Origin: Synechococcus sp. HK01-R | GTDB taxonomy: Bacteria > Cyanobacteriota > Cyanobacteriia > PCC-6307 > Cyanobiaceae | Direction: 5' to 3' | Assembly (NCBI RefSeq): GCF_014217855.1 | Contig: NZ_CP059059.1 | Span: 124,001 to 188,000, forward strand | Length of the DNA: 64,000 nt | Shown: in pieces, positions 61,645 through 62,025 of the stretch | How positions within the stretch are numbered: position 1 is the stretch's first letter | How the letters are laid out: each line of letters opens with the position of its first letter | Program-made: the position numbers and the translations under genes | The notes under the pieces: model-generated | Database searches by the model: none | What the model saw: the letters and a program-made list of their open reading frames with translations, nothing else | Told to the model about the DNA's origin: nothing

Positions 61645-61682
61645 AAAAAGACTGGAGGAATCGCTAAGCGCGATTCCTCCAG
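61645..61682 (-). terminator. Terminator-like stem-loop just after atpE
   Basis: On the minus strand, a 13-bp perfect stem (CTGGAGGAATCGC and its complement, five-base loop) begins 7 bases after the atpE stop and is followed by TCTTTTT. It has the form of an intrinsic terminator, yet lies inside the atp operon before atpG'. It probably cuts off part of the transcription after the c-subunit gene, or forms a protected 3' end. Confidence 0.8.
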
Positions 61683-61689
61683 ACCTGAA

Positions 61690-61938
61690 TCAGCCGGCGA
61701 AGGGGTTGGCGAACAGGAGCACCAGAGCCACAACCAGGCCGTAGATGGTCAGAGCTTCCATGAAGGCCAGGGAGAGCAGCAGGGTGCCGCGGATCTTGCC
61801 TTCAGCTTCGGGCTGGCGGGCGATCCCTTCCACAGCCTGGCCGGCTGCGGTGCCCTGGCCAATGCCAGGACCGATGGCGGCGAGGCCCACCGCGAGAGCG
61901 GCGGCCAGGACGGAGGCGGCGGAGGTCAGATCACTCAT
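61690..61938 (-). CDS. atpE: F0 ATP synthase subunit c
   Basis: 82 residues. Two-helix proteolipid of the c-ring: [73 protein letters not shown], with the ion-binding Glu in [14 protein letters not shown] 61938 begins MSDLTSAAS. The gene is flanked by two strong stem-loops on the same strand. Confidence 0.99.
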
Positions 61939-61992
61939 TGGTGGAAAGCGGTTGGGGTTGCGCAGGATGAGCGCGGAAAGGGCAGGGCGCGC

Positions 61993-62025
61993 CCGGGACA
62001 CTCTTCCGAGGAAGAGTGGGCCCGG
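61993..62025 (-). other. Strong stem-loop between atpB and atpE
   Basis: CACTCTTCC and GGAAGAGTG form a 9-bp perfect stem closing over GA, extended by CCGGG pairing with CCCGG across a small bulge. It lies 55 bases upstream of the atpE start, within the 153-base atpB-atpE spacer. Candidate mRNA-processing or stabilising element or 5' structure tuning c-subunit translation. Confidence 0.75.

Follow-up and report, generated by a model that had tools for sequence, protein, structure and literature searches.

A recurrent hairpin at the c-subunit stop codon in cyanobacterial atp operons and its relation to the ATPC RNA motif

Unequal expression within operons and the c subunit

How one operon provides 13-15 c subunits beside single copies of the other subunits is an old question; the c-ring is described as containing 13-15 subunits per enzyme (PMC11124002). 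Among the closest described systems are hairpins between genes of an operon. In E. coli, malE-malF and further operons with differential decay are reported to have a strong hairpin right behind one operon gene, and a hairpin immediately precedes the end in 26 of the 34 cases of a stabilised upstream gene, these hairpins being free of U-tracts (PMC5927463). The Clostridium SRPS operons, with ATP synthases among those listed, are described as likewise having intercistronic stabilising hairpins (PMC8219983). PNPase is said to be halted by stable structures; the cyanobacterial enzyme is referred to in the same source as not studied biochemically (PMC10989914). Hairpin protection is not general in S. 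elongatus, since only 75 of the 163 defined ends lacking a U-tract are reported there as structured (PMC13289151). For the Arabidopsis chloroplast gene atpH, a PPR10 site upstream and a 3' end at +151 defined by a stem-loop are reported (PMC3817242).

Expression data are published for a relative, Prochlorococcus MED4. The log2 array signals given are 10.7 for atp1, 10.5 for atpB, 13.0 for atpE and 10.9 for atpA, i.e., the atpE signal is about 4-6 times that of atpA and atpB; the half-lives (array/qRT-PCR, min) are 5.0/2.4, 4.6/8.0, 13.5/15.6 and 12.2/6.2, respectively (PMC2897979). According to the same report, half-life in MED4 operons grows with the distance from the promoter, a trend which may explain part of these differences. 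The report also mentions that transcription has an additional start in front of atpE, cited there as data not shown (PMC2897979); the abundance may therefore be transcriptional on the 5' side, and such an internal start alone could explain the 5' step.

Layout of the operon and the structure upstream of atpE

The window, i.e., the whole stretch of DNA that was analysed, is 64 kb long and has the atp operon genes on the (-) strand; the features discussed below are collected in Table 1. Downstream of atpG, the genes atpF, atpH, atpA and atpC follow on the same strand. The mechanical reading frame of atpE in the ORF list extends to 62031; the protein of 82 aa is matched in 274 of 300 family genomes, and the stop codon is TGA (61692-61690). 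The gaps measure 153 nt (atpB-atpE), 85 nt (atpE-atpG), 58 nt (atpH-atpA) and 13 nt (atpA-atpC), while atpG-atpF and atpF-atpH overlap. The original prediction that the other junctions of the operon are short is thus broadly correct, the 58 nt between atpH and atpA being the exception, and its statement that no comparable hairpin is found at the other internal junctions agrees with our inverted-repeat and terminator scans. The operon likely ends at the hairpin 28 nt after atpC, because this hairpin is terminator-like and has a tail of six T.

Table 1. Positions of the genes and RNA structures considered in the window
Feature	Positions	Strand	Details
atpB (subunit a), upstream neighbour of atpE	62092..62820	(-)	ORF list; query against 61 operon loci
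ATPC RNA motif, Rfam RF01067	61988..62078	(-)	73.7 bits by cmscan (gathering cut-off 45; E 2e-12)
ATPC helix P3	62019..62038	(-)	62038-62032 pairs with 62025-62019
ATPC helix P4	61999..62018	(-)	62018-62012 pairs with 62005-61999
Upstream hairpin of the original prediction	61993..62025	(-)	MFE fold
atpE (subunit c, 82 aa)	61690..61938	(-)	ATG start at 61938; sequence
Whole 3' element	61640..61689	(-)	predicted outer stem 61689-61685 (UUCAG) / 61644-61640 (CUGAA)
Downstream hairpin (perfect stem of 13 bp, loop of 5 nt)	61652..61682	(-)	7 nt past the atpE stop
TCTTTTT run behind the stem	61645..61651	(-)	uncommon among relatives
atpG (subunit b'), downstream neighbour of atpE	61140..61604	(-)	ORF list
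Ordinary terminator-like hairpin past atpC (contrast case)	57478..57499	(-)	9-bp stem, TTTTTT tail

The structure in front of atpE had been taken for a simple 5' hairpin. This has to be corrected: it is the already catalogued ATPC RNA motif, which is matched over its full length (model positions 1-92 of 92; cmscan, Rfam) in the gap between atpB and atpE. Motif and place are the same as in RF01067, and no difference was found. The paper of origin is said to be that of Weinberg (2007); our search of the open-licence literature on the motif returned nothing relevant. The survey, run with stricter filters, covered 388 genomes of the class (64 of the own family and 324 others) and 14 controls. The motif is present in 60 of the 64 family genomes at E<=0.001, with 56 of these over the gathering cut-off, and in none of the 324 other genomes or the 14 controls; this distribution agrees with the occurrence of the motif in picocyanobacteria. 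No ATPC was found up to E 0.5 in 17 operon loci, 11 of them outside the family and six belonging to it (L112-L117, of the Prochlorococcus-type genera g4 and g6), where even the permissive threshold gave nothing.

The helices were counted after alignment of the 110 distinct upstream sequences with MAFFT, the counts being made without a shuffle control. Pairing is kept in 750 of 767 cells of helix P3 and in 724 of 754 of P4, with two-sided changes in both and with several P4 pairs occurring as two or three standard pair types; P2 (449 of 547) and P1 (372 of 513) are weaker. The compensatory changes suggested earlier as a check on both stems are therefore found, for the 5' structure, in P3 and P4 of ATPC. 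The upstream hairpin of the original prediction does fold (-32.5 kcal/mol, z = -4.4, 51 nt), but only its inner part, P4, is a conserved helix. Its outer stem, 62025-62021 with 61997-61993 (CCGGG/CCCGG), takes the 3' arm of P3, so it competes with P3, and we take P3 and P4, not the full stem, to be what is conserved (333 of 506 cells paired in the outer stem against 750 of 767 for P3). What was predicted is P4 with an alternative outer pairing, the latter being likely not the conserved one. The 5' element is thus known, and the new part is the 3' hairpin.

Recurrence and sequence change of the hairpin behind the atpE stop

The 3' hairpin is present in the window as originally described, with its perfect 13-bp stem and the TCTTTTT run, and its fold has z = -6.4 (46 nt). 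It is the sole perfect stem of at least 13 bp with a loop of 3-8 nt in the window; 20 dinucleotide shuffles contained none. The unusual feature is the stem length, a loose terminator-like pattern being far from rare (6 in 8 kb against 5.6 expected). The T-run is enclosed by the predicted outer stem. In Rfam the hairpin has no match above the cut-off; mir-761, isrG and others are sub-threshold. An origin from a repeat element was considered and is unsupported: a 12-mer of the arm has four exact matches in the genome, two of which are the hairpin itself. Our searches of the open-licence literature brought up no description of this hairpin behind atpE.

Recurrence was assessed in 61 operon loci (the window and L121-L180), namely 15 of the same genus, 35 others of the family (50 family operons in total) and 11 from outside it, by folding 65 nt past each stop against 100 dinucleotide shuffles. 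After atpE, z<-2 is reached in 14 of the 15 same-genus loci, 20 of the 35 other family loci and 6 of the 11 outside ones, and z<-3 in 12, 12 and 4, respectively. Among the 50 family operons, z<-2 is found 34 times after atpE, as compared to 8 times each after atpB and atpG, once after atpF, twice after atpH and 4 times after atpA; past atpC, at the operon end, it is found in 20. Uninterrupted stems of at least 8 bp occur after atpE in 19 of the 50 (4.2 expected); such stems are likewise enriched behind atpG, with 15 of 50 over 100 nt (3.6 expected), and behind atpB, with 21 of 50 over 150 nt that include ATPC (8.4 expected), and this speaks against a feature peculiar to atpE. In the outside-family loci (L161-L171), the atpA-atpC junction itself has z<-2 in 7 of 11 and z<-3 in 5 of 11, while 4 of the 50 family operons have z<-2 there.

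A wider set of 258 loci gave 183 distinct downstream sequences, many of them related, so that the counts are not of independent events. The 65 nt at the atpE stop have z<-2 in 119 of the 183, and 64 fall short of it; at offsets of -200, -130, -65, 65, 130 and 200 the numbers are 22, 25, 8, 20, 30 and 18. By GC class, the signal at the stop is found in 25 of 37 low-GC, 33 of 53 middle and 61 of 93 high-GC sequences. Outside the family, z<-2 is found in 22 of 38 loci (two are identical; 21 of 37 distinct), which were classed by search group or record name and include Nodosilinea, Pseudanabaena, Spirulina and Rivularia. Single groups vary: in genus g2 (L002-L019; small AT-rich genomes, taken to be high-light Prochlorococcus) the hairpin is short and AT-rich, with z<-2 in 8 of 18, and locus L053 has z -0.8 at the atpE stop. 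One contig (L198) is labelled as a Clostridia MAG; its atpE is 89% identical to the AtpE of the window, and the contig is probably mis-binned cyanobacterial DNA.

These counts bear on the reading that we deal with ordinary functionless hairpins of GC-rich intergenic DNA or of repeats. GC-rich genomes do fold readily, and 3.8% of 6394 windows of 65 nt equal the 3' one in stability; however, z corrects for dinucleotide composition, the signal is strongest at a single offset of the seven and is present there in low-, mid- and high-GC loci, and the arm, with its four exact matches, is not a repeat family. We consider the absence of any function very improbable, even though the ambiguous covariation results given below count in its favour.

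The 3' hairpin is separable from ATPC and more widely distributed, since loci of genus g4 and from outside the family have it without ATPC: in the four g4 loci the hairpin is strong, with z from -4.3 to -5.7, and the six outside-family loci with z<-2 at the atpE stop belong to the 11 in which ATPC was not found. The two g6 loci have neither structure.

The arms differ widely within one genus, yet a strong stem is retained in most members; what is kept is the position of the hairpin, while its sequence changes. When 74 disjoint pairs of sequences are compared, two-sided changes keep 43 base pairs and break 36, while one-sided changes keep 83 and break 185. An earlier count, in which 43 double changes were kept as compared with 2-13 for slid partners, had been taken as covariation support and was withdrawn after a recount per cell: the kept doubles make up 43 of 1070 pair cells (4.0%) as against 0.4-4.4% with partners slid by 1-5, a slide of +4 being as high as the real partners, and kept single changes are no commoner than in the slid controls. 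Misalignment of the fast-changing arms may be the reason for this outcome. In an alignment of 12 sequences, mainly from another genus, two-sided changes are found in 3 of 11 pairs and the covariation term is -0.06; a similar outer stem (UCAG/CUGA) is found in the same alignment. An outer CAG...CTG motif occurs in 27 of 106, as counted without a control. The evidence for the 3' element is that a fold of unusual strength returns in many loci at the same fixed position.

This position is nearer to the atpE stop than to the atpG start. In the 52 of 61 loci that have a hairpin under -8 kcal/mol, the median distance is 9.5 nt from the atpE stop to the beginning of the hairpin (quartiles 7-15; sd 10 nt) and 47 nt from its end to the projected start of atpG (quartiles 37.75-68.5; sd 30 nt). 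A hairpin so near the stop codon falls where the terminating ribosome would sit, which counts against protection of the mRNA by this hairpin; in E. coli, hairpins close to a stop are reported to affect translation. It might accordingly be proposed that the hairpin acts on translation, by insulating atpG or slowing the ribosomes at the atpE stop, with mRNA amounts unchanged. We find this improbable, as the distance to the atpE stop is steadier than that to the atpG start, and as it would leave the mRNA differences reported for MED4 (PMC2897979) unexplained.

Possible roles and comparison with known systems

The downstream hairpin had been called terminator-like. This is true of the copy in the window, with its 13-bp stem and TCTTTTT, but not as a property shared by relatives. 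In a scan for a stem of at least 6 bp with at least 5 T in 8 positions, with the expectation taken from base shuffles, terminator-like structures follow atpE in 2 of the 50 family operons (0.8 expected) and in 9 of the 183 distinct sequences (about 3.4 expected), as against 25 of 50 past atpC (2.2 expected). An intrinsic terminator and the window copy are the same in stem, loop and T-run; they are different in that the T-run is absent in most relatives and the atp operon continues past the atpE hairpin. With the U-tract found in 2 of 50 operons after atpE against 25 of 50 at the operon end, we favour a role in stabilising or processing the mRNA over that of a conserved terminator; in this genome, the TCTTTTT tail may bring about some partial termination as well.

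The 3' hairpin could still be a partial intrinsic terminator (attenuator) in general, yielding more atp1-atpB-atpE mRNA than mRNA of the stator and F1 genes. Such an element would produce a drop in mRNA past atpE as seen in MED4 (PMC2897979), stronger U-tracts are reported to go with less readthrough in S. elongatus (PMC13289151), and the window copy does have the stem followed by the T-run. On the other hand, the tails are as rare in relatives as just described, the T-run falls inside the predicted outer stem here, and attenuation alone would not lift atpE above atpB. We therefore regard attenuation as unlikely, albeit the most serious of the alternatives.

We propose instead, with about even confidence, that the cistron of subunit c is tuned separately from the remainder of the atp mRNA, as a segment with ATPC as its leader and a hairpin protecting its 3' side. 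ATPC in the atpB-atpE gap would be the folded 5' leader of the atpE segment and would arise either by cleavage of the polycistronic mRNA or on a transcript begun just upstream. The hairpin behind the stop would block 3'-to-5' exonucleases after cleavage further on, and the fragment bearing atpE would outlive the remaining mRNA, with more subunit c as the result. Observed here are the two structures and where they lie, that they recur in relatives, and that the U-tract is not shared; the excess and long life of atpE mRNA come from the published MED4 data; we infer the cleavage, the protection, the protein output, the link to stoichiometry and the application to this organism. The two structures probably help to make or to keep more atpE message. 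The original idea that they raise c-subunit mRNA fits their distribution, with a hairpin found again at the atpE stop across cyanobacteria and ATPC found between atpB and atpE in picocyanobacteria, and it fits the MED4 mRNA values; its account of the 5' structure and of the terminator had to be amended as above.

Antisense RNA should also be considered at this junction. In Prochlorococcus NATL2A, a 370-nt antisense RNA, as_atpF, is reported opposite the gap before the b' gene, with levels that follow the mRNAs (PMC7368042), and antisense RNAs are said elsewhere to target atp1 and atpH, among others (PMC6091082). By geometry, as_atpF seems to lie opposite the c-b' junction, equivalent to 61605-61689 of the window. 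The junction might then be a site of antisense control, where the hairpin is a part, an end or a target of an antisense transcript guiding the processing. The NATL2A paper, which concerns one strain, names the neighbour of as_atpF 'delta' (PMC7368042), so that the placement at c-b' is ours; and a consensus scan of 56000-64000 found no promoter-like site on either strand, a weak argument. Between atpB and atpE, too, the scan gave no sigma-70-like site, which does not exclude a promoter there. Control of this kind has, in our opinion, very little chance of being the explanation.

More tentatively than the proposal of a separately tuned segment, and with somewhat less than even confidence, we suggest that cyanobacteria in general share a hairpin at the c-gene stop that is kept in position and free in sequence, that it sets the mRNA of the c-ring against that of the stator, and that it is independent of ATPC. 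If so, picocyanobacteria added ATPC in front of a wider hairpin device, and the free drift of the sequence would let such a device be missed by alignment-based RNA discovery. Folding anchored to a position can reveal elements which a search by alignment would miss. The recurring hairpin is a specific and testable cis-element for c stoichiometry, and it gives a context for the ATPC motif.

Turning to the known systems, we believe that the 3' hairpin belongs to the known class of intercistronic hairpins; it is unusual within this class in recurring at the c-subunit stop across cyanobacteria with no conservation of sequence. As in the SRPS operons, a stable stem-loop is found close behind one operon gene; the U-tract is absent in most relatives and present here. 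As far as malE-malF and the SRPS operons are described (PMC5927463, PMC8219983), they have in common with atpE that the upstream subunit is needed in excess; their general lack of a U-tract is matched by most relatives, not by the window copy. The atpE hairpin differs from them in being cyanobacterial, in its fixed place with a sequence that is not conserved, and in being known from sequence alone; the picocyanobacterial case differs further in that the hairpin is paired with a structured 5' leader. Chloroplast atpH, as presented in PMC3817242, is the same gene (subunit c), set apart as an abundant mRNA of its own whose two ends are defined. It differs in that a protein gives the 5' protection and also defines the main 3' end (+297); the stem-loop is located in the stretch of 50 nt that precedes +151, and the likeness to the atpE hairpin is one by description.
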